From Rubricoccus marinus (GTDB lineage: Bacteria; Bacteroidota; Rhodothermia; Rhodothermales; Rubricoccaceae): a DNA stretch of 64,000 nt. Shown here piece after piece: positions 24,534 to 60,571 of the stretch (its first letter is position 1; each line of letters starts with the position of its first letter). A model generated the notes under the pieces. It saw only the letters and a program-made list of their open reading frames with translations. It made no database searches and was not told the origin of the DNA. Where the stretch lies: assembly GCF_002257665.1 (NCBI RefSeq), contig NZ_MQWB01000014.1, positions 1 to 64,000 on the forward strand, in the 5' to 3' direction. A program made the position numbers and the translations under genes.

Positions 24534-24794
24534 CGGCTTCCAGATACGTTTGCGGTTCCCTAACCTATGTGCGGGTGAGGCCTCATCGTGTCACACAGAG
24601 TCTCGCGGCGAGGGTTCTTGAAGTGATCCTCAGCCTTTCCAGTACGCCCCATTTGGAGACATACCGTTAGCCTAGGGTGTTGACCTGCAAGACCTTGCAT
24701 CAGGCGATTGGGCTGACCCGCCGTGGGTCCGGCCCTGACTCAGATTCCTTTGACAGCTTGAATTGATCTCAGATAAGCGGACTCCCAGTGGAGC
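24534..24794. promoter_or_regulatory. intergenic region at the defence-island / element-backbone boundary
   Basis: A 260-base gap, AT-richer than its surroundings, between the STAND nuclease start and the end of the small backbone protein gene. It should hold the promoter of the STAND gene. No coding frame, no obvious long dyad and no tRNA end were found, although the shift from island genes to backbone genes makes it a place where an element boundary could lie. Confidence 0.3.
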
Positions 24795-25106
24795 TCAATA
24801 CTCCGACGGCAGAAGGACTGTCGTCGCCGAACGGTCGGCCTCAGTAATGATCCAGAGCCGGCCGCCAGTCGTCTCGTAGGCCGAGAGGACGCGGGTGCCC
24901 TCCCCGACCGCGCGGTCGTTGGCCCGTGCGTCGTGCTCGGAGACCGATCCCCAGTCGCCAGCCCGGTGGCGGTGGAGGAGCCCCACGACGTCGAGGCTGT
25001 GACTGCGGACGACCTCGAGGGCGCCCGGCGTGGCGACCACGTGCCCGAGCGGAAAGCGGACGGGGCGGGTCTGGGGACGTTCGTTCTTGGCAGCGGTCGT
25101 GCTCAT
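24795..25106 (-). CDS. conserved small protein of integrative/plasmid elements
   Basis: A 103-residue protein starting at the ATG at 25106 (MSTTAAKNE). It has the pattern of a small conserved protein often encoded beside RadC on plasmids and ICEs: FPLGHVVATPGALEVV, HRHRAGDWGSVSEHD, RANDRAVGEGTRVLSAY and a final WIITEADRSATTVLLPSEY. No catalytic motif is known to me and its function is not established. A strong hairpin (25128-25184) lies 22 bases upstream of the start, between this gene and the RadC gene on the same strand. Confidence 0.8.
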   Translation of the reverse strand: MSTTAAKNERPQTRPVRFPLGHVVATPGALEVVRSHSLDVVGLLHRHRAGDWGSVSEHDARANDRAVGEGTRVLSAYETTGGRLWIITEADRSATTVLLPSEY

Positions 25107-25127
25107 GGCAGCGGTGGTTGAAGCGGA

Positions 25128-25184
25128 GGGCTCTCCCGGCGTGGGGGGCGTTCGCCATTCGGCGCCTCCTCGCCGGGAGAGCCC
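25128..25184 (-). promoter_or_regulatory. leader hairpin upstream of small backbone gene
   Basis: A perfect 14-base inverted repeat: GGGCTCTCCCGGCG at 25128-25141 and its complement at 25171-25184, with a 29-base loop. Flanking GGTGGTTG and CCACCACC can extend the stem imperfectly. It ends 21 bases upstream of the start at 25106 and has no T-tract, so it looks more like a leader structure or protein-binding dyad than a terminator. Confidence 0.7.
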
Positions 25185-25216
25185 AGCCACCACCTGCTGG
25201 GGGCAGAACCTCTCAG

Positions 25217-25996
25217 CTACATCAGCCCTCGCCCCGCCAGGCTCGTGTGCCCGTGGTCGGTCAGGATCAGGTGGTCGTGGACCGGAATGCCCATCACCTT
25301 GCCCGCCTCGACAAGCTGGCGCGTGACGGCCACGTCCTCCCGGCTCGGCTCGGGGTTGCCGCTCGGGTGGTTGTGCGCCAAGAGCACGGCGGCGGCGTTC
25401 GCCAGCACGGCCGCCTTGAACACCTGGCGCGGCTCGACGATGGACGCCGCCAGCCCACCGACTGACGCCACGTGGAGCCCGGTCAGCGTGTTCGCCGTGT
25501 CGAGGAAGGCGACCACGAACTCCTCGCGGTCGCGGTCGGAGAAATACTCGGCCAGCACGGCCGCCGCGTCGGCGGGTGAGCGGACCTGGTCGCGCGTCGG
25601 GAACGTGAACGTCCGCTCACGGACGAGCCGGGTCGTGTAGAGCGGGACGCCGGAGAACAGGGCGTCCCGGTAGGCCACGTGCGTGTCGGGCTGGCGGAGC
25701 ATGCCGACGGGCTCCCGAACGACGGATTGAGGGCCGACCTCTGAGGTCTCGGCCACCGTGCCGTACAGCACGGTCCGCCGCGCGAACCACGGCGCGTCGG
25801 ACTCCAGCCGACGGAGCCGCCCACGCACGGCCAGTCGCCGGGCGTGGTAGCGCTCGCGGCGGTCGAGCTTGGGCTGAAGGATTACAGGAGCGCCGTCGTA
25901 GCGGTCACAGCCCTCGGGCATCCTGGCCTCGATGTCGCGGAGCACGCGGAGGTTGAGCGCTGTGAGGGGCGAGGCCCCGGATTTCTGGGTTGCCAT
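25217..25996 (-). CDS. radC: RadC-like JAB-domain protein
   Basis: A 259-residue protein whose C-terminal half is a RadC/MPN (JAB) domain: EEFVVAFLDTANTL, then the metal motif HNHPSGNPEPSREDVAVT, with the two histidines and the downstream aspartate expected of a JAMM zinc site. It ends DHLILTDHGHTSLAGRGLM, a RadC hallmark. The N-terminal half differs from chromosomal RadC and lacks an evident helix-hairpin-helix, as usual for plasmid and ICE versions. Despite the name, a repair role is not supported for the family; function remains unclear. It is followed by the small backbone gene and preceded by a long hairpin. Confidence 0.88.
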   Translation of the reverse strand: MATQKSGASPLTALNLRVLRDIEARMPEGCDRYDGAPVILQPKLDRRERYHARRLAVRGRLRRLESDAPWFARRTVLYGTVAETSEVGPQSVVREPVGMLRQPDTHVAYRDALFSGVPLYTTRLVRERTFTFPTRDQVRSPADAAAVLAEYFSDRDREEFVVAFLDTANTLTGLHVASVGGLAASIVEPRQVFKAAVLANAAAVLLAHNHPSGNPEPSREDVAVTRQLVEAGKVMGIPVHDHLILTDHGHTSLAGRGLM

Positions 25997-26044
25997 GAGT
26001 TTTCAGGCGTCGCTCCGCACAGTCAGACATCGACCGTGGTGGGA

Positions 26045-26087
26045 GCGCCCCCGTCGGCCGACGCGCCCTCGCGGCCGACGGGGGCGC
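26045..26087 (-). promoter_or_regulatory. leader hairpin upstream of radC-like gene
   Basis: A perfect 16-base inverted repeat (GCGCCCCCGTCGGCCG at 26045-26060; complement at 26072-26087) with an 11-base loop, 48 bases upstream of the RadC-like start. There is no T-run after either arm. It lies between the terminator of the preceding gene and the radC start, hence in the radC promoter/leader. Confidence 0.7.
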
Positions 26088-26123
26088 CTCGCTCGCCTCC
26101 GTCGAGCGCCTGCCCCGTTGCGG

Positions 26124-26160
26124 CAAAAAAGAAGCCCGGCGACCGCCTGGGTCGCCGGGC
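26124..26160 (-). terminator. intrinsic terminator after the 233-aa gene
   Basis: Read on the minus strand, a GC-rich stem GCCCGGCGACC / GGTCGCCGGGC (26150-26160 and 26134-26144; 5-base loop) is followed at once by TTCTTTTTTG. This is a textbook rho-independent terminator, 21 bases after the stop at 26181. Confidence 0.88.
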
Positions 26161-26180
26161 TGAGGGCCTCAGGCTCTGGG

Positions 26181-26882
26181 CTACTCGTCGTCCCAGTCGG
26201 TCTCGCTGGCGGCGCTGCCGCCGTAGGCGTCGGCGCCGTAGAGGAAGTCTCCGTAGCTCGCCCCCGGTGCCACCGTGTCGAGATAGTTCGCCCGGTATGC
26301 GTACGGGCTCTCCTCGGCCACCGCGTGGGCCTCGGCCCAGGCCTTGCGGTCGTCGGCCCAGTCGAGCCACGCCGACGCGGCCTCGTGCGCCCGGCTGATC
26401 GCGACGTGTACCTCGTCGTTCTGGCCTCCGGTCACGTGGTACCGCAAGACGGTGCCTGTGCCGTAGGCGTCGGACTCCAGCCGGATCAGAGGGGCCACCC
26501 ACAGGGCGTCCACCGGCGGGAGCTTGCCGAGCAGGTGCTTCTCCGCGTGCGTGCCCGTCCGGTCGGCCACTTCGAGGAACAGGTGGACCTCGTCGGCCGA
26601 TGCGTCGTCTGGATCGACCACGGCGATCCGGGCCACCAGCTCCGGGTACTTATCGCCAGAGGTGGCCCGAGCGGCGAGCCGTGCGAGCCCGGCGGCCTCG
26701 CAGTCCTGAAGACGCGACGGGAGGATGATCGACCGGCTGCCGAGCCGGAAGCTCTCGCGCAGGGCGTCCTCCTTCATGAGGTGCGGGTGGAACTGGGGGC
26801 ACGACGTGCGCCGGAGCCAGCAGGCGAAGCGGTACCAGGTCCGGGCCTGAGCGTAGTGCGGACGGGAGTAAGTGCGGGGCAT
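26181..26882 (-). CDS. element backbone protein of unknown function (233 aa)
   Basis: From the ATG at 26882 this encodes 233 residues. The N-terminus has an aromatic, basic segment with Cys and His residues (YAQARTWYRFACWLRRTSCP), then KEDALRESFRLGSRS. The middle is acidic and beta-rich (LVARIAVVDPDDASADEVHLF; VHVAISRAHEAASAWLDWAD), and the C-terminus ends in an acidic DDE tail after a small-residue stretch. I do not recognise a family. It has its own terminator downstream and a hairpin-bearing leader, in the same style as its neighbours RadC and DUF6166, so it is likely a regular part of the element backbone. Confidence 0.72.
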   Translation of the reverse strand: MPRTYSRPHYAQARTWYRFACWLRRTSCPQFHPHLMKEDALRESFRLGSRSIILPSRLQDCEAAGLARLAARATSGDKYPELVARIAVVDPDDASADEVHLFLEVADRTGTHAEKHLLGKLPPVDALWVAPLIRLESDAYGTGTVLRYHVTGGQNDEVHVAISRAHEAASAWLDWADDRKAWAEAHAVAEESPYAYRANYLDTVAPGASYGDFLYGADAYGGSAASETDWDDE

Positions 26883-26923
26883 GACAAGACCTCGGAAGAG
26901 GGGCTCGTGACGACCGCCATGCC

Positions 26924-26944
26924 CGGGGACCCGAGTGGTCCCCG
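26924..26944 (-). promoter_or_regulatory. leader hairpin upstream of the 233-aa gene
   Basis: An 8-base perfect stem (CGGGGACC at 26924-26931, complement at 26937-26944) with a 5-base loop, 41 bases upstream of the start at 26882. Smaller than the neighbouring leader hairpins but in the same position. Confidence 0.5.
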
Positions 26945-27045
26945 CTAGCCAGCGGCCACACCGCCAGCAGGCGTAAGGCCGGACTACAGGGTCAACAGGG
27001 CTGCTTGCAGCCCGGGTGGAGCGCCCCCGCGCGGAGGGACCGTCG

Positions 27046-27085
27046 GAAAACCCTGGGCGGCGAAGACGCCCGCATCTGGGTTTTC
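27046..27085. terminator. long hairpin, probable bidirectional terminator
   Basis: GAAAACCC at 27046-27053 pairs with GGGTTTTC at 27078-27085, enclosing a second stem GGGCG/CGCCC (27055-27059 and 27067-27071). A-rich and T-rich arms would give a short U-run in either direction. It lies in the 428-base gap 26883-27310 between two minus-strand genes. The rest of that gap shows no convincing coding frame; two CTAG words occur at 27135-27147. Confidence 0.6.
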
Positions 27086-27310
27086 TGTCGCAGCGCGAGC
27101 ACGGGGCGAACGACCTTGACGCTGTCCGGCCGTCGCCTAGATTGCTAGAAACCGCTGCCAACACCCCGCCCCCCTCCTGCCGGTGTGCCGGGTGCGGACC
27201 GGCAGGGAGACCGTCCAGGGCCGCCAGGTCCTGACCGTCCTCCCCTCTGATGGCGCCTCTGGCGACCCGCCTGCCCAGGTACCCGTTCGACCTGAGCAAA
27301 CGGTGACCCG

Positions 27311-37025: not shown

Positions 37026-37283
37026 CTACCGCCCGCCGCGCCGAATCCCGAAGTGGCGGGCCTCCAGAGCGAAGCCCCCTCCCCTGCCCCGCTCGGTCTC
37101 TTCCAGGTGGCGCCGGAGCGCCTCCTGGACGACGTCGTTCTGGCTCACGCCACTCTCCTCGGCCGCCGCCCGCACTCTGGCGCGCATCCACGCCGGGACG
37201 TTCCAGTTTCCCTGGACGATCCGCTCGTAGCCCTCCTCGCCCGGCGCGGGCGCCTCGGGTCGCTGGACGGGCTTCGCCGGTCC
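37026..37283 (-). pseudogene. ribbon-helix-helix protein C-terminal remnant (second element copy)
   Basis: 85 residues closely matching the C-terminus of the RHH partition protein at 53982-54425 ([48 protein letters not shown]). By eye the DNA is about 85 percent identical. The lysine-rich N-terminal arm is missing; in its place the frame continues into a UBP zinc-finger fragment. The RHH fold itself is intact, so a chimeric protein of 131 residues could in principle be made from an ATG at 37421. Confidence 0.8.
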
Positions 37284-37440
37284 GACGACGGGGTGGCTCG
37301 TGTGGTAGAAATGCTTCGTCGTGTGCCGTCCCGGCGAGCTGTCGCAGCAGCTGACGTGGTCGCAGCGCAGGCAGAGCCGGAGGTGGACCCAGCGCAGTCT
37401 CGACTTCAGGTCTTCAGGCACTCCTTGTAGCCCCGGGTCC
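37284..37440 (-). pseudogene. UBP-type zinc-finger protein remnant, frameshifted
   Basis: The segment WVHLRLCLRCDHVSCCDSSP followed by GRHTTKHFYHTSHPVV is the core of a bacterial UBP zinc finger. The N-terminal KECLKT lies one frame away just upstream (about 37410-37440), so the gene carries an indel, and its C-terminus is replaced by the RHH tail at about 37283. The metal-binding Cys and His residues of the visible core are present. Confidence 0.72.
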
Positions 37441-51504: not shown

Positions 51505-52134
51505 GTGCTCTACCCCCGCCAGACCGAGCTCCTTGCGCTCCTCCGCGACGCCGTCCGCCGCGGCGGGGCGGCCCCGAACGGGAGCGAGCTCGCTCGGCGG
51601 ATGGGGCTCGCCAACGTGTCCGCGGTCTACGCCCATCTCCGCAAGCTGGAGGCGGCCGGGTTCGTCGCGCTCACGTCCGGGGGCCGGGGCGTCCCGCTCC
51701 AGATCGAACTCACCGAGTCCGGCGAGCGCCACGGTCGCGCGCGCCCCTGGCCGCGGCTCGGGAAGATCCCCGCCGGGCCGATCACCGACGTGGCGGCCCA
51801 GGCCGACGACTTCGTCGCGACGCTCCCAGACCTCGTGCCCGCGATGCGGCCCGGCGACTACCTCCTGGTCGTCGACGGGGAGTCGATGACGGGCGCAGGG
51901 CTCCTCCCCGGGATGACGCTCGTCATGCGGCCCGACGTGACCCCGACCGACCGCGACGTGTGCTCGGTCTACGTCGAGGGCGAGGGGAATACGCTCAAGC
52001 ACGTCGTCGAGGACGGCTCGTACGTCGTGCTCGTCGCGCGCAACCCCGAGTACCCCGACCAGCGCGTGCCTAAGAGCATGGCCTGCGTCCAGGGCGTCGT
52101 CGTCGCCGCGCTCGCCGTCCAAACCTTCCGCTAA
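51505..52134 (+). CDS. LexA-like S24 family transcriptional repressor
   Basis: A 209-residue protein from GTG 51505. Residues 1-65 form a winged helix (GSELARRMGLANVSAVYAHL, RKLEAAGFVAL). The C-terminal S24 peptidase has the self-cleavage pair Ala90-Gly91 (GKIPAGPITD), the nucleophile in DGESMTGAG (Ser127) and the general base in GNTLKHVV (Lys165). Such proteins repress genes until RecA filaments trigger self-cleavage, so this element is probably induced by DNA damage. It is followed 19 bases later by the sigma factor and kinase genes on the same strand. It could instead be the host lexA, but the location argues for an element regulator. Confidence 0.85.
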   Translation: MLYPRQTELLALLRDAVRRGGAAPNGSELARRMGLANVSAVYAHLRKLEAAGFVALTSGGRGVPLQIELTESGERHGRARPWPRLGKIPAGPITDVAAQADDFVATLPDLVPAMRPGDYLLVVDGESMTGAGLLPGMTLVMRPDVTPTDRDVCSVYVEGEGNTLKHVVEDGSYVVLVARNPEYPDQRVPKSMACVQGVVVAALAVQTFR

Positions 52135-52153: not shown

Positions 52154-52768
52154 ATGACCTCGACGACCCTCCCGCCCCGCCGCCGAACGATCCGCACGAA
52201 GGCCGACGCCGAACGGGCGGTCTACGCCGACCTCCGGCAGATCGCCCGGAGGCTCCGCTCGCGGGAGAGCCCCGGGATCACGCTCGCGACGACGGGCCTG
52301 GTCCACGAGGCGTACCTCTCGCTCCAGCGGAGCCACGGGGCCGGATACGAGATCGGCTGGAACGCCGAGGTGTCCTTCGGGCTCTACGCCACGGCCATGC
52401 GGAACGTGCTCGTGAGCGCGGCCCGCCGGAGGCGCGCCGACAAGCGAGGCGGCGGGGCGGCCACCGTTCCGATCTCCGAGCACGACGTCCGCGCGGGCGC
52501 CGACCCGACGGGCGTTGAGGGCTGGGCGCACCTCACGGTCGATCTCGACGCGGCGATGGAGCGGGTCCGCCGCGCGAGCGAACGGCTTCACCGGGTCGTC
52601 GAGCTCAAGTTCTTCGCCGGCCTCGAGATCGCCGAGATCGCGGGGGTGACGGGGACGAGCCCGGCCACCGTGAAGCGGGATTGGGAGAAGGCCCGCGCGC
52701 TGCTCTACGCCTACGTCTCCGAGGACTCCACGTCGCAGGAGACCATCGACGCGCCACAAGCCGGATGA
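52154..52768 (+). CDS. ECF-type RNA polymerase sigma factor
   Basis: A 204-residue ECF sigma factor of the subgroup seen in Rhodothermota and Planctomycetota. Region 2 has VYADLRQIARRLRSRES and LVHEAYLSL; region 4 has RLHRVVELKFFAGLEIAEIA followed by a helix-turn-helix (GTSPATVKRDWEKARALL). It lacks a clear anti-sigma partner but its stop overlaps the ATG of a Ser/Thr kinase gene (ATGA), the usual arrangement for this subgroup. It may activate the element's transfer genes; that is inference. Confidence 0.88.
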   Translation: MTSTTLPPRRRTIRTKADAERAVYADLRQIARRLRSRESPGITLATTGLVHEAYLSLQRSHGAGYEIGWNAEVSFGLYATAMRNVLVSAARRRRADKRGGGAATVPISEHDVRAGADPTGVEGWAHLTVDLDAAMERVRRASERLHRVVELKFFAGLEIAEIAGVTGTSPATVKRDWEKARALLYAYVSEDSTSQETIDAPQAG

Positions 52769-54425: not shown

Positions 54426-54434
54426 GGATCTAAG

Positions 54435-54475
54435 GTCTAGACGCTAGATGCTAGGGTGTAGAGTCTACGTCCTAG
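54435..54475. promoter_or_regulatory. CTAG-rich site between parA and RHH gene
   Basis: Four CTAG words in 39 bases (54437, 54444, 54451, 54472) including the palindrome GTCTAGAC at 54435-54442. The cluster sits in the 46-base gap before the RHH gene. The same palindrome occurs once in each of two other clusters nearby. Confidence 0.6.
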
Positions 54476-55257
54476 ATGATTCGGGGCGACGGGCGCGCTT
54501 CGATCTCGTCGGCCAGCGCGGCGTAGTCCTGGGCGGCCGTCGAGGCGCGGTCGTAGAACGGGAGCGGGACGCGCGCCATCTCGGACTCGCGCACGCGGAC
54601 GGTCTCCCGGATGTAGGTCTTGAGCCCCCCCTCCCCGTCCGGGCCTGCCACCTGCTGCGCGACGTACTCGGCGAGGTCGAGGTCGTGGTGGCTCGACACG
54701 TTTACGCGCGTGGCGAAGGCGCCCGAGACGGGCGTCGTCCCGAACCGCTTCGAGAGCTCGACGACGTCGACGAGCCCGTCGAGCGCGCCGCGGCCCGACG
54801 CGACGGGCACGTAGACCTCGTCGGCGGACGCGAGCGTGGCCGTGACGAGCGCCGACGCCTGGGGCGGCGAGTCGATGACGACGAAGTCGTAGTCCGCCTC
54901 GACGGCGTCGAGCAGCGCGACGAGCCGGTTGGCGAGCCGGGCGACGGCCTGGCCCTCGAACTGGACGAGTTGGCGGCTGGCCGGGACGAGGTGGAGCGCG
55001 CCGCCGTTCTCGGCGAGCGGCTTGTCCCAGAGCCCCTCGGGCCGGAGCACGGCGGCGGCGGCTTCGATCTCGCCCTTGAGGTACTGCGCCGCGGCGTGGG
55101 ACGGGTCGAGCCCGGCCGATTTGGTCAGCGTCGCCTGCGGGTCGAGGTCGACCAGCAAGACGCGGCGGCCACGGCGGGCCAGTTCGGCCGCGACGGCGAG
55201 CGAGGAAGTCGTCTTGGACGAGCCGCCCTTGAGGTTGCTGAAGGCGATGACGCGCAC
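54472..55257 (-). CDS. parA: ParA family partition ATPase
   Basis: A 261-residue ParA/MinD-type ATPase. The deviant Walker A motif KGGSSKTT is at residues 10-17, followed by VLLVDLDPQATLTKSAG (Walker A') and FVVIDSPPQA (Walker B). There is no N-terminal HTH, so it is a type Ib-like ParA whose partner would be a small RHH protein, as found next to it. It would bind DNA non-specifically and position the element in the cell. It is likely autoregulated from the CTAG-rich region upstream. Confidence 0.93.
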   Translation of the reverse strand: MRVIAFSNLKGGSSKTTSSLAVAAELARRGRRVLLVDLDPQATLTKSAGLDPSHAAAQYLKGEIEAAAAVLRPEGLWDKPLAENGGALHLVPASRQLVQFEGQAVARLANRLVALLDAVEADYDFVVIDSPPQASALVTATLASADEVYVPVASGRGALDGLVDVVELSKRFGTTPVSGAFATRVNVSSHHDLDLAEYVAQQVAGPDGEGGLKTYIRETVRVRESEMARVPLPFYDRASTAAQDYAALADEIEARPSPRII

Positions 55258-55274
55258 GGGGGAGGGGGGATGGC

Positions 55275-55411
55275 CTAGCCCCTAGATACTACCGGCTAGG
55301 GTCTATTGTCGAGAGTCTAGACACTAGTCGTGATACATAGGACTCTCGTGAGCCGTCGCGGCGCAGCGAGGCGCTGAACGGAGCGAACAGAGCCTAGGGT
55401 CTAGATGCTAG
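55275..55411. promoter_or_regulatory. CTAG-rich array upstream of parA and traF-like gene
   Basis: Eight CTAG words in 137 bases (55275, 55282, 55296, 55317, 55324, 55394, 55401, 55408), including GTCTAGAC at 55315-55322. It is the divergent region between parA and the signal peptidase gene. Density and shared palindrome suggest a centromere (parS-like) or operator array for the ParA/RHH pair. Confidence 0.62.
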
Positions 55412-55983
55412 AACGACATGAAGCACAGCGTTGCGAGGACGCCCGTTGGGCGCGCCGCCTGCGTCTATGGTTCGTCGCGGTCGGAGGGGCGGTCCTTGCC
55501 GTGGCTGTGGGGGCGCTGCTCGGCGTCCGCGTCAACACCACGCCCAGCCTCCCGAGAGGGCTCTACGTCGCCTCGGCACTGGGAGAGCAGCCGGTCGCGC
55601 GGGGCGACTTGGTGGCCGCGTGCCCGGACACGGCAGCGGTCCAACGTCTCGGCCGGTACTGGACGAACGGGCGGTGTCCCGGCGGCACCGGTCGCCCCAA
55701 CGGCGTCCGGCCGCTCGCGAAGCCGGTCGCGGGCCTCCCAGGCGACACCGTCCGCGTCGACCGCGGCGGCGTTTGGGTAGGGGGTAGGCTCCTGCCGTCG
55801 AGCGCGCCGCTCGTCCGCGACCGTGCGGGACGACCCGTCCGGCCCGCACTCGGGGTGCGCGTCCTCGGACCTGGCGAGTACTGGCTCCACTCGGGGCGGG
55901 TGCCCACGTCGATCGACTCCCGCTACGCCGGACCCGTCCGCGTCGTCCTCGAACGGCTCCGGCCGCTCTGGACGGAGGACTGA
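55405..55983 (+). CDS. traF: TraF-like S26 signal peptidase (conjugation)
   Basis: A 192-residue S26-type peptidase with one N-terminal membrane segment (about residues 20-42). The serine nucleophile lies in NTTPSLPRGLY and the general-base lysine in KPVAGLPGDTVRV, then GGVWVGG and the C-terminal box SIDSRYAGPV. RP4 TraF matures and cyclises the TrbC pilin, and here trbB and trbC follow, so pilin processing is the likely role. The ATG at 55405 lies within the CTAG array; a later ATG at 55418 is out of frame. Confidence 0.85.
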   Translation: MLERHEAQRCEDARWARRLRLWFVAVGGAVLAVAVGALLGVRVNTTPSLPRGLYVASALGEQPVARGDLVAACPDTAAVQRLGRYWTNGRCPGGTGRPNGVRPLAKPVAGLPGDTVRVDRGGVWVGGRLLPSSAPLVRDRAGRPVRPALGVRVLGPGEYWLHSGRVPTSIDSRYAGPVRVVLERLRPLWTED

Positions 55984-56100
55984 GCCTCGGCGCGGCCGGG
56001 GCGCGCTCTACCCGTCGGACCCGCCCGGCCACCTCTCCGAACGAGGTGACAGCCCGGTGAGCGTAGCCCGAGGCGGGTCCCGACTTCCCCAACCCCGTCC

Positions 56101-57099
56101 GTGCCCACGTCCTCCCGCCCTCAACAGACCCGGACTGGCGCCGACGGGAGCGCCGAAGCGGGGCGCGAGGGCCGCTACCGCGAGCTCATGGAGCGGTACC
56201 TCGGCCCGCGCGTCGTCGAGGCCTTCGCGGACGACGACGTAACCGAGGTCTACGTCAACGGCGACGGCCGGCTGCGGCTCGACACCCACTCACGGGGCAA
56301 GGTGCTCGCGGGCGTCCAGCTCCGCGCCGCCCGCGTCGAGCAGTTCCTGCACGCCGTGGCCGCCTTCCACGGCGACGCGCTCCACGGCGGCACGCCGACC
56401 GTCCAGGCCGAGCTCCCCGACGCCACGTTCGGGGGCGCCCGCCTCCAGGGCTTCCTGTCGCCACTGGCGGAGGCCTCGTGCTTCGTGATCCGCAAGCGGG
56501 CCTCGCGCGTGTTCGACCTCGACAGCTACGTCCCCACCGTGATGACGGCGAAACAGCGGACCGCGCTCCGCGACGCCGTACACGCCCACGAGAACATCCT
56601 GGTCTGCGGAGGCACCGGCTCGGGCAAGACGACGCTCTGCAACGCGCTCTTGAAGGAGATGACCGACCTATTCCCAGAGGAGCGGATCGTGGTCCTGGAG
56701 GACACGGGCGAGCTCCAGTGCGCGGCCGACGACCACCTCCAACTGAGGACCTCCGACGACGTATCGCTCGCCGACCTCGTCCGGCACACGCTCCGCTGCA
56801 CCCCCGACCGGATCGTCGTGGGAGAGGTCCGCGACGAAGCCGCGCTCCACCTCTTGGACGCTTGGGCGACGGGCCACCCCGGAGGCTGCGCGACGCTCCA
56901 CGCGACCACGGCGCTCGGGGCGCTCCACCGGCTCGGGCGGCTCGCGCAGCGGGCCAACGTGCCGCCCCAGCACGAGTTGGTGGCCGAGGCCGTCGGTGTC
57001 GTCCTCGTGATCCAGGGCGGCAACCAGGGGCGGCGCGTGACGGAGCTCGTCCGCGTCGACGGACAGACGGAAGGGACCTACGAGCTCTCGCCCGTCTAA
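56101..57099 (+). CDS. trbB: TrbB conjugative transfer ATPase (VirB11 family)
   Basis: A 332-residue secretion ATPase from GTG 56101. Walker A GGTGSGKTTL is near residue 170; the Asp box EERIVVLEDTGELQ, the Walker B region DRIVVGEVRDEAALHLL and the His box HPGGCATLHATTALGAL are all present. It would form a hexameric ring at the inner face of the type IV secretion channel and power pilus assembly and DNA transfer. It is followed by trbC, trbD and trbE in the standard P-type order. Confidence 0.95.
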   Translation: MPTSSRPQQTRTGADGSAEAGREGRYRELMERYLGPRVVEAFADDDVTEVYVNGDGRLRLDTHSRGKVLAGVQLRAARVEQFLHAVAAFHGDALHGGTPTVQAELPDATFGGARLQGFLSPLAEASCFVIRKRASRVFDLDSYVPTVMTAKQRTALRDAVHAHENILVCGGTGSGKTTLCNALLKEMTDLFPEERIVVLEDTGELQCAADDHLQLRTSDDVSLADLVRHTLRCTPDRIVVGEVRDEAALHLLDAWATGHPGGCATLHATTALGALHRLGRLAQRANVPPQHELVAEAVGVVLVIQGGNQGRRVTELVRVDGQTEGTYELSPV

Positions 57100-57223
57100 G
57101 CGCCGCTGTGAGCGCGACGTCGCCCGGGTGAGCCTCGGACGCGGCCCGCCGCGCTCTCGCGCAGTAGGCGGCCCTCCAGGGCCTCTGGCGAGCCGCCGCG
57201 ACCTCTCACTCCACCCCGCGCCC

Positions 57224-57562
57224 ATGCCCCGCTCGCTCCAGCCCGACCCCAGCCGCTGCGTCCTCGTCGGACGCGCCCTCACGCTCCTCGCCCTCGCGGC
57301 CGTCCTCGCCGACCCCGCCGCGGCCTCTGGCGGCGCGGCCATGCCGTGGGACGGCCCGCTCCAGACCATCGCCGACGCGCTCACCGGCAACACCATCCGC
57401 CTCGTCGCCGTGATCGCGCTCGCCGCCGGCGGCATCGTGTGGGCATTCACCAAGAACGAGGAGGGCGTCAAGCGGATCGGCCAGGCCGTGCTCGGCCTCG
57501 GCGTCGCCATCGGCGCGGCCTCGTTCGCCGCCACGCTCGGCATCTCAGGCTCGACGTTTTGA
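57224..57562 (+). CDS. trbC: TrbC pilin (VirB2 family)
   Basis: A 112-residue pilin precursor. A signal-peptide-like segment (residues 12-35, ending AAAS) is followed by two hydrophobic helices: NTIRLVAVIALAAGGIVWAF and RIGQAVLGLGVAIGAASFAA. Its start at ATG 57224 is 124 bases after the trbB stop, and the stop overlaps the TTG start of trbD by 4 bases (TTGA). It is likely processed by the TraF-like peptidase encoded upstream. Confidence 0.88.
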   Translation: MPRSLQPDPSRCVLVGRALTLLALAAVLADPAAASGGAAMPWDGPLQTIADALTGNTIRLVAVIALAAGGIVWAFTKNEEGVKRIGQAVLGLGVAIGAASFAATLGISGSTF

Positions 57563-57903
57563 GCGCGGTCCGCAGCGGGGGAGGGGGGACGCTCCCCGAG
57601 CGGCCCGTCCACCAGTCGCTCGTCCGGACGCCCCGCTACGCCGGGGTCGACCGGACCTTCCTCGTCTTGGAGGTCACGCTCGTCGTTTGCCTGGGCTACC
57701 TCATGGGCGTCTCGTGGGCGACGGCGGGCGTCGTGCTCCTCACCGTCGGCGTGGTCCACCCGCTCATGGTCCGGCTCTCGGCCGACGACGAGCTCCTGCC
57801 GCACCTCGTCGTGCGGACGCTCACGCAGGCCGACGCCTACGACGCGCTCCCGCACGCCTCTGGCTCGGGCCGCAAGCCGAGCCCGGCCGTTCCCACGCCC
57901 TAG
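57559..57903 (+). CDS. trbD: TrbD (VirB3 family)
   Basis: A 114-residue inner-membrane component of the mating channel. PVHQSLVRTPRYAGVDRTF is followed by two close membrane helices (VLEVTLVVCLGYLMGVSW, GVVLLTVGVVHPLMVRL) and a polar tail. The start codon is TTG at 57559, overlapping the trbC stop. VirB3 proteins bind the VirB4 ATPase, which is encoded next. Confidence 0.87.
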   Translation: MSAVRSGGGGTLPERPVHQSLVRTPRYAGVDRTFLVLEVTLVVCLGYLMGVSWATAGVVLLTVGVVHPLMVRLSADDELLPHLVVRTLTQADAYDALPHASGSGRKPSPAVPTP

Positions 57904-57937
57904 CCGAAACGGCTAGAACCTAGCGTCTAGACCCTAG
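57900..57937. promoter_or_regulatory. CTAG-rich site before trbE
   Basis: Five CTAG words in 38 bases (57900, 57913, 57920, 57927, 57934), with GTCTAGAC at 57925-57932, immediately upstream of the trbE ATG at 57941 and overlapping the trbD stop. It is the third cluster of this kind and lies inside the trb operon. Confidence 0.6.
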
Positions 57938-57940
57938 ATC

Positions 57941-60571
57941 ATGAGTTTGATTTCTGCCGCCGCCGGCTTGGCCGCCGGGTCGCTGGGTGCCACCGCGCTC
58001 GGGAAGCTCCGCGAGCACCGGAAGGCGCCGCGTGCGCTCTCGGACCTGCTCGGCTGGGGCTTCCTGGTGGGGGAGGGGGTCGTGCTCACGAAGGACGGAT
58101 CGTTCCTGGCCGCCTGGCGCGTCCGGGGCCGGGACCTCGCGTCCTCGACGGTGGGCGAGGTCGCCGCGCTCGCCACGCACGTCGGCGCCGCGCTCTCGGC
58201 CTACGGCGACGGCTGGATGATCCACGCCGATGCCGTCCGCCGAGAGGCCGTCGGCTACGCGCTGCCCGAGCGGTGCCACTTCCCCGACCCCGTGAGCGCG
58301 CTCGTCGACGAGACGCGCCGCGCCCGCTACACGGCGACCGCCGAGCACTACGAGACCGAGTCGGTCTTCTCGCTCACCTACACGCCGCCCCCGGGGCTGG
58401 TCGGCCGTCTGCAAAAGGCCGTCGTCGCCGGACGAGACGGGGCGCGCGATGGTTCGCGCGGCGGCGTCGACTGGGACCGGCTCCTCGGCCAGTTCGAGCG
58501 CGAGGCGCGCGGGCTCCGCGACCGCCTCTCGTCGGCCGTCCGGATCGAGCGGCTCGGGAGCGCGGACCTGCTCCGGCACCTCCACGAGTGCCTGACAGGG
58601 CTGCCCCACGCCGTCGGCGTGCCGGGGCGTGGGGCGTACCTCGACTACGCGCTCGCCGACCAGCCCTTCGTCGGCGGCTTCGAGCCGCGCGTGGGCGGCA
58701 AGCACGTCCGCGTCGTCGCCGTGCAGGGCTACCCGAACACCACGACGCCCGGCCTCGCCGACCCGCTGCTCCGGCTGCCGTTCCCGTACCGGTGGAGCCT
58801 GCGGTTCCTGCCGTTCTCGCCAGCGACGGCGACCAAGGTGATCGGCAAGGCCCAGCTCGGGTGGTTCCAGAAGCGGCGCGGCGCGGGCGACTGGGTGAAG
58901 GACATGGCCTCGAAGGAGAAGCGCCAGGACACCGAGATGGACCTCGCCTTCCAGGACGCGAACGCGAGCCAGATGGTGCTCGACGCCGGCGCCGCTCGGG
59001 CCTCGAACACGGGCGGCGAGCTCCGCTTCGGCTACCTCACGGCCTGCGCCGTCGTGATGGCGGAGAGCGGGCGCGCGGCGGACGACCGGGCGGCCGGGCT
59101 CCTCAAGGCCGTCCGCGACCTCGGGTTCACGGGCCGCGTCGAGGACGTGAACGCCGTCGACGCCCTCATTGGCTCCCTGCCGGGCCACGGCCACGCCAAC
59201 CTCCGCCGCCCGGTCTTGTCGACCGACAACCTGGTCGACTTGCTCCCGCTCACGGCCCCGTGGGGCGGGCACCGCGAGGTCCCGAGCGGGCTCTTCCCCC
59301 CGGGCTCGCCGCCGCTTCTGTGGGCGAGGACGGACGGCTCGACGCCGTTCCGCCTCTGCCTCCACGAGGGCGACGTGGGCCACACGCTCGTCGTCGGCGC
59401 GACGGGCGCGGGCAAGTCCGTGCTCGTGGGCCTGATTCTAGCACAGTGGCGCCGCTACGCCGGAGCGCGGACGGTCACGTTCGACGTCGGCTACAGCCAC
59501 TACGTCTCGGGCCGCGCGATGGGCGCGGCGCACTACGACCTTGCCGGGCCTCTGGCAGCAGGCCGCCCGGTCGAGATGCAGCCGCTCCGCGACGTGGACC
59601 GGCCCGAGGTGCGGACGTGGGCCGTCGACTGGGTCGAGTCCCTCGTCGAGCTCCAGGGCGAGCGGCTCTCGCCCGACGAGCGGGGGCGCCTGGCCCACGC
59701 CGTCGGCCTGCTGGCGGAGAGCCCGCCCGAGGACCGGACGCTGACGGCGCTCCTGGTCGGGCTCGGCGACGAGCGGCTCCGGGCGCTCGTCCGGCCCTAC
59801 ACGCTCGAAGGCCCGTACGGCCAGCTCTTCGACGCCGACCGCGACTCCTTCGGGGCCGGTAACAGCCCCAGCAGTGGAGAGGAAGCCGTCCGGCACCAGG
59901 TCGTCGAGCTCTCGCACTTGGTCGGGATGTCGGACCGCGTGCTCGTGCCGGCGCTGACGTACCTCTTCCGCCGCGTCGAGGAGGGCCTGGACGGCTCGCC
60001 GACGCTCATCGTGATCGAGGAGGCCTGGGCGGCGCTCATGCACGGCCGCTTCGCCGACCGCCTGAGGCAGTGGCTCCTGACCCTCCGCAAGCGGAACGCG
60101 GCCGTCGTGGTCGTGGCCCACAGCCCGGCCCAGTTCCGCGACCCCGGCGTCAAGGGCGCGCAGCTCCTCGTCGAGAGCTGCCCGACGCGGATCTTCCTGC
60201 CCAACCCCGACGCCGCCGAGCCCGACACGGCGGCGCTCTACCGCTGGCTGGGTCTCAACGAGGCCGAGGTGTCTCGGCTCGCGCGGGCACGGAAGAAGCA
60301 GGACTACTACGTCCGCTCGCCGTCGGGCGCCCGGACGTTCGACCTCGCGCTGGGGCCGCTGGAGATGGCGTTTCTGGGCACGCTCCCCGGCCGCTCAGCC
60401 GACGAGACCGTCCGCGAAGCCGCGCGGCTGGCGGACGCCGACCCTGAGAAATGGCTGACCGAGTGGCTCCGTCTCTGCGGCCTCGATGCCGAAGCCGACG
60501 CGCTGGAGCGTTCGTATCCGGTTCGTCTTGGCCCATGCGCGAGCGACGCTACCGCGCCGACGCGGCGCTGA
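57941..60571 (+). CDS. trbE: TrbE conjugative transfer ATPase (VirB4 family)
   Basis: An 876-residue VirB4-type ATPase. The N-terminus has a short hydrophobic segment; the N-terminal VirB4 domain covers residues 1-400. The ATPase has Walker A VVGATGAGKSVLVGLIL (about residue 486) and Walker B PTLIVIEEAWAAL (about 688), followed by the conserved LRKRNAAVVVVAHSPAQFRD. It energises pilus assembly and DNA transport. Its last 23 bases overlap the convergent winged-helix gene of the toxin-antitoxin-like pair. Confidence 0.95.
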   Translation: MSLISAAAGLAAGSLGATALGKLREHRKAPRALSDLLGWGFLVGEGVVLTKDGSFLAAWRVRGRDLASSTVGEVAALATHVGAALSAYGDGWMIHADAVRREAVGYALPERCHFPDPVSALVDETRRARYTATAEHYETESVFSLTYTPPPGLVGRLQKAVVAGRDGARDGSRGGVDWDRLLGQFEREARGLRDRLSSAVRIERLGSADLLRHLHECLTGLPHAVGVPGRGAYLDYALADQPFVGGFEPRVGGKHVRVVAVQGYPNTTTPGLADPLLRLPFPYRWSLRFLPFSPATATKVIGKAQLGWFQKRRGAGDWVKDMASKEKRQDTEMDLAFQDANASQMVLDAGAARASNTGGELRFGYLTACAVVMAESGRAADDRAAGLLKAVRDLGFTGRVEDVNAVDALIGSLPGHGHANLRRPVLSTDNLVDLLPLTAPWGGHREVPSGLFPPGSPPLLWARTDGSTPFRLCLHEGDVGHTLVVGATGAGKSVLVGLILAQWRRYAGARTVTFDVGYSHYVSGRAMGAAHYDLAGPLAAGRPVEMQPLRDVDRPEVRTWAVDWVESLVELQGERLSPDERGRLAHAVGLLAESPPEDRTLTALLVGLGDERLRALVRPYTLEGPYGQLFDADRDSFGAGNSPSSGEEAVRHQVVELSHLVGMSDRVLVPALTYLFRRVEEGLDGSPTLIVIEEAWAALMHGRFADRLRQWLLTLRKRNAAVVVVAHSPAQFRDPGVKGAQLLVESCPTRIFLPNPDAAEPDTAALYRWLGLNEAEVSRLARARKKQDYYVRSPSGARTFDLALGPLEMAFLGTLPGRSADETVREAARLADADPEKWLTEWLRLCGLDAEADALERSYPVRLGPCASDATAPTRR

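Follow-up and report, generated by a model that had tools for sequence, protein, structure and literature searches.

Why does the tetranucleotide CTAG recur in tight clusters around a parA gene and at the starts of mating-channel genes on a contig of Rubricoccus marinus? The initial annotation described three such clusters, preceding a gene for a ribbon-helix-helix (RHH) protein, parA and traF, and trbE, and proposed that they are centromere and operator sites of the ParA-RHH pair, linking partition with expression of the mating channel. Here we analyse the spacing, conservation and gene neighbourhood of these clusters and consider it likely that the ParA-RHH pair encoded on the plasmid uses the CTAG arrays as its centromere and operators, a reading for which the support is comparative in kind. 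If correct, it would bring RHH-heptad centromeres to Rhodothermales plasmids, would tie T4SS control to partition control via the centromere-binding protein itself, and would make natural sister plasmids that lie one base of step apart a direct test of how incompatibility specificity evolves. In the open-access literature we found no paper that joins RHH proteins, CTAG, direct repeats and partition.

Replicon context and gene order

The stretch analysed, hereafter the window, comprises bases 1-64000 of contig C14, which measures 90,452 bp and belongs to a draft genome of 4.43 Mb in 15 contigs. C14 carries the T4SS genes traF, trbB, trbC, trbE, a T4SS-family gene, virB8, virB9, trbI and T4CP and, besides parA-RHH, a Rep3 initiator, a relaxase and a NikA-like protein, and is therefore probably a conjugative plasmid. 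At each end it shares a stretch of 117 identical bases with contig C15 (65,283 bp), which suggests an assembly overlap through a common repeat and fits, without proving, two co-resident circular plasmids. A window segment of about 2.4 kb (24785-27182) has similar stretches at 86-90% identity on C15 and on contig C26 of genome G039. The features relevant here are listed in Table 1.

Table 1. CTAG arrays and genes around parA on C14, in window positions unless stated otherwise.
Feature	Position	Strand	Remarks
LexA/S24-like gene	51505-52134		beside RHH gene
ECF sigma gene	52154-52768		beside RHH gene
RHH gene, 147 aa	53982-54425	-	proposed centromere-binding protein and repressor; weak RHH-family matches
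Array 1, 7 contiguous heptads	54430-54478		candidate operator/parS between RHH and parA
parA, 261 aa	54472-55257	-	PF13614, E 2e-33
Array 2a, 8 contiguous heptads	55275-55330		upstream of parA
Array 2b, 3 heptads	55394-55414		over traF start; candidate operator
traF-like S26 signal peptidase	55405-55983	+	PF10502, E 3.6e-15
trbB-like ATPase	56101-57099	+	PF00437, E 2.9e-36
trbC/virB2-like pilin	57224-57562	+	PF04956, E 7.1e-18
trbD	~57560-57903		named from position; no profile match
Array 3, 4 contiguous heptads	57913-57940		abuts trbE ATG; candidate operator
trbE/virB4-like ATPase	57941-60571	+	PF03135 and PF19044
Fifth array, 3 slots	contig 66868-66888, just past window		before virB9; with fourth GTCTAGAC

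Seven-base register of the CTAG arrays

All 17 CTAG copies reported for the three clusters were recovered (4 in 54435-54475, 8 in 55275-55411 and 5 in 57900-57937), as was the palindrome GTCTAGAC, present once in each at 54435, 55315 and 57925. The division into three needs amendment, since the middle cluster consists of two arrays, 2a and 2b, placed 70 bp (10 x 7) apart. The gaps between successive copies, cluster by cluster, are 7, 7 and 21; 7, 14, 21, 7, 70, 7 and 7; and 13, 7, 7 and 7 bp, so that 13 of the 14 are multiples of 7, for which an arithmetic estimate of chance gives about 1e-10. The 13-bp gap is due to a lone off-register CTAG at 57900, located at the trbD stop codon; because genomes G004 and G008, which have no array here, keep the same CTAG at the trbD stop position, it was not counted in array 3.

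Read slot by slot, array 1 is CTAA CTAG CTAG CTAG GTAG CTAC CTAG and array 2a is CTAG CTAG CTAC CTAG CTAT CGAG CTAG CTAG. The in-register slots between CTAG copies that are not CTAG themselves (GTAG, CTAC, CTAC, CTAT and CGAG) each differ from it by one letter, and of the 21 such slots in the heptad loci taken together, 19 match CTAG at three of four positions, against a background of 5%. The palindrome GTCTAGAC is missing from some homologous arrays in the comparison of heptad loci and is not itself their essential unit.

Elsewhere the motif is dispersed: the remaining ~63.8 kb of the window holds the other 41 CTAGs, spread out. Markov shuffles lead one to expect 60-93 CTAGs in the window, and more than four within 60 bp were found in no shuffled window. 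Across the contig as a whole, 11 pairs of CTAGs have a distance of exactly 7 bp, compared to 0.16 (maximum 2) in 200 shuffles, and CTAG-N3-CTAG-N3-CTAG occurs five times in the 4.43-Mb genome, all on C14. A CTAG pair at 27137 with a step of 8 bp was set aside as chance.

Array 1 extends from 5 bp upstream of the RHH start codon to the parA stop codon, which it overlaps. Array 2a, the strongest parS candidate, overlaps the element TCGACA-15-TAGTAT, which as TCG(A/G)CA-15-TAGTAT is conserved in the parA upstream region of five loci and can be read as a putative promoter; the CTAC slot of the array falls within it. Upstream of trbB no recognisable array was found on C14, and in-register arrays are present there in G039 and G006 (L016:6142 and L018:13597).

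Conservation among relatives

The initial annotation had suggested looking for the same clusters at homologous positions in related elements, and every further relative found keeps arrays next to its parA-RHH genes. RHH relatives with 69-78% identity are encoded at four loci, two on separate contigs of G039 and one each in G006 and G007, and in all four heptad arrays adjoin parA; arrays also precede trbE and virB9 wherever the relatives retain those genes. In each of the four intergenic regions that were compared the cores are better conserved than the spacers, with core and spacer identities to C14 of 0.70 and 0.39 between the RHH gene and parA, 0.95 and 0.55 between parA and traF (five loci), 0.87 and 0.54 between trbD and trbE, and 0.97 and 0.80 between virB8 and virB9.

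Among 114 genomes of the order, heptad triples occur in the four that bear the RHH gene and in 3 of the 110 others, mostly as minisatellite-like repeats. In G004 and G008, where TrbE is 82% identical and the RHH gene is absent, trbE has no upstream array. The Bacteroidota plasmid ParA matches in Adhaeribacter, Persicobacter and Tunicatimonas revealed no arrays of this kind in a simple scan. Singleton CTAG triples in G043, G009, G461, G046 and G057 were set aside as satellites or chance, and one on G052:C10 precedes a gene other than parA.

On contig C13 of G007 a heptad array (L019:9460-9520) lies beside a short ORF similar to the trbD end. The 20-kb stretch yielded no trbE homologue and resembles a decayed transfer region.

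The ParA and RHH proteins

ParA is a Walker ATPase without an N-terminal HTH, the PF13614 alignment starting at residue 1, and its closest solved relative is 1wcv, a 'segregation protein' (E 8e-22). The 147-aa protein is tentatively assigned to the RHH class on profile matches that are all weak and mostly of RHH type (PF07704, HicB, RHH_1, RelB-like); PF07704 is matched by all seven RHH homologues, with a best E-value of 0.004. We propose that residues ~83-130 form the ribbon-helix-helix, and the motif VQ(G/A)NWNVPAW...SQN is conserved in the homologues. AlphaFold models of the full protein and of the domain (mean pLDDT 56 and 59) place the two helices rightly, at low confidence. Profile searches gave no PF07764 (omega) match for the protein or its relatives, a Pfam search of the same proteins gave no ParB or KorB match, and the RHH profile matched none of the PDB sequences. 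Searches of plasmids, viruses and the phylum gave no match outside the order, and a profile of the RHH domain, run against the class, contributed nothing beyond weak partial matches.

The two genes travel together: parA adjoins the RHH gene in seven of seven loci, and also in G441 and pSR84, which are more distant. Since ParA and the RHH protein always occur together, their co-occurrence is compatible with DNA contact by ParA as well. At 37029-37319 (-) the window contains a second copy of the RHH C-terminus, 89% identical over residues 59-147 and without a CTAG array; this truncated copy probably remains from a segment that was duplicated or recombined.

A variant with an 8-bp step

The parA-RHH pair of C15 has diverged from that of C14 (66 and 45% identity, respectively), and the RHH proteins of C15 and of contig C2 of G007 are ~45% identical to the C14 protein over the whole length. 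Both contigs carry CTAG arrays at an 8-bp step. On C15, 15 CTAG pairs lie exactly 8 bp apart versus 0.17 in shuffles, all seven octad triples of the host genome are found there, and the arrays precede parA, RHH, trbB, trbE, virB8 and the ECF sigma gene. The register is imperfect, with one 6-bp step (8-6-8) in some arrays of C15 and G007:C2. The array at the sigma gene (L021:7155-7174) lies directly before it; the C14 homologue has no array upstream.

Residues Q86, N88 and N90, which lie in the proposed DNA-reading strand and by analogy with other RHH proteins may contact bases, are identical in the 7-bp and 8-bp groups. The sample consists of five heptad and two octad RHH proteins and thus of a single evolutionary transition between 7 and 8 bp, because of which co-variation of step and RHH protein is inseparable from shared ancestry of ParA or the T4SS genes.

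More distant pairs show further variants. G441:C326 encodes a ParA at 37% identity and a homologous RHH protein (hhalign E 1e-6), with two CATG arrays spaced 8-7-8. The Salinibacter ruber plasmids pSR84 and pSR66 encode a ParA at 40% and an RHH protein (hhalign E 3e-12 for pSR84), and their parA genes are preceded by TCACG-type repeats with an 8-bp step. In S. ruber pSR35, contig G020:C2 of the same order, CTAG octads precede parA and are accompanied by a different RHH protein, the only one to match PF07764, weakly and below the cut-off (E 0.0028).

Comparison with known systems

The RHH protein omega of pSM19035 binds 7-bp repeats that overlap promoters, with 7-10 repeats per site at the parA, parB and copS promoters, and activation of ParA needs at least four contiguous repeats (PMC9499535). 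The locus described here resembles the delta-omega system in its small ParA with a putative centromere-binding protein of the RHH class, here assigned by weak profile matches, in contiguous 7-bp repeats at par promoters, which are here deduced from conservation, and in one protein that would also control gene expression. It differs in that the core is CTAG rather than WATCACW, the RHH protein lacks a PF07764 match or any detectable sequence match to omega, the array-bearing genes include T4SS genes, and a sister plasmid has an 8-bp step.

In the KorB-IncC system of the IncP-1 plasmids RP4/RK2, KorB is an interaction partner of the partition ATPase and a repressor at many operators, the trb promoter being repressed only weakly (PMC7314908). 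A ParA partner doubling as multi-operator repressor is what we propose here too. KorB is an HTH ParB acting on discrete palindromes, unlike the RHH protein and tandem repeats of C14. ArtA of pSK41 is an RHH master regulator repressing conjugation and segregation genes, with six sites on the plasmid (PMC6540685), and in R388 a single protein, StbA, influences plasmid stability as well as conjugation by way of direct repeats (PMC3098194). The C14 protein would share with ArtA the repression of both gene classes by an RHH protein, and with StbA the influence of one protein on both processes through direct repeats. ArtA is not known as the centromere-binding partner of any ParA, nor is StbA known to belong to the RHH class or to work with a ParA. 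MetJ, a chromosomal methionine regulator with no ParA, places RHH dimers on tandem 8-bp met boxes, which resemble the C15 octad arrays in their step.

Proposed mechanism and alternatives

We propose that each (pseudo)palindromic CTAG is occupied by one dimer of the RHH protein, and that the fixed 7-bp step would put adjacent dimers in contact, leading to cooperative binding. The long arrays (7-8 slots, in the RHH-parA gap and upstream of parA) would form the partition complex on which ParA acts and by which it may be stimulated, and would also give autorepression of parA and RHH, while the same RHH protein would repress the mating channel from the short arrays of 3-4 slots where traF, trbE and virB9 begin. 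The 3-slot arrays may be operators only, because they fall below the known 4-repeat minimum of omega; at least four contiguous repeats are present in arrays 1, 2a and 3 if one-letter variants count, and in array 3 alone with strict CTAG.

Step (7 versus 8 bp) and core (CTAG, CATG, TCACG) diverge with the RHH clade, and such divergence could prevent cross-recognition between co-resident plasmids. More tentatively, at somewhat short of an even chance, there may be a modular centromere code, in which a shared 4-bp core is read by the identical Q86, N88 and N90, the 7- versus 8-bp spacing sets which RHH protein assembles, and a one-base change of step keeps two sister conjugative plasmids in one cell compatible, with separate control of their mating channels.

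The arrays might instead be operators only, the RHH protein repressing par and tra genes as ArtA does while the centromere lies elsewhere, or ParA might serve conjugation in the manner of VirC1/VirC2. We think this rather unlikely. ArtA is a precedent for such a repressor (PMC6540685), the arrays adjoin or overlap start codons and the conserved promoter-like element, and ParA has a weak VirC1 match; against this, parA is flanked by the longest contiguous arrays, as in pSM19035, and in Salinibacter plasmids typed as non-mobilizable related ParA-RHH pairs and repeats adjoin the replication initiator. It is quite improbable that the arrays are operators of an adjacent regulator (a LexA/S24-like, ECF sigma or Ser/Thr kinase circuit) with the RHH protein as a bystander. 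The three regulator genes do adjoin RHH and are conserved in C14, C15, G039 and G006, but all are absent from two loci, the ~20-kb G007:C13 and ~16-kb G007:C2 stretches, where parA-RHH and its arrays are still present, and C14 and C15 differ in array step although their LexA-like proteins share 78% identity. An origin of the arrays as a satellite made by tandem duplication, or as chance AT-rich promoter sequence, with no dedicated protein, is hardly credible, for although CTAGNNN-type minisatellites in G043 of the same order give an identical pattern, trbE has no upstream array where the genome lacks the RHH gene, the same genes are preceded by arrays in several plasmids, and the cores are kept while the spacers vary.
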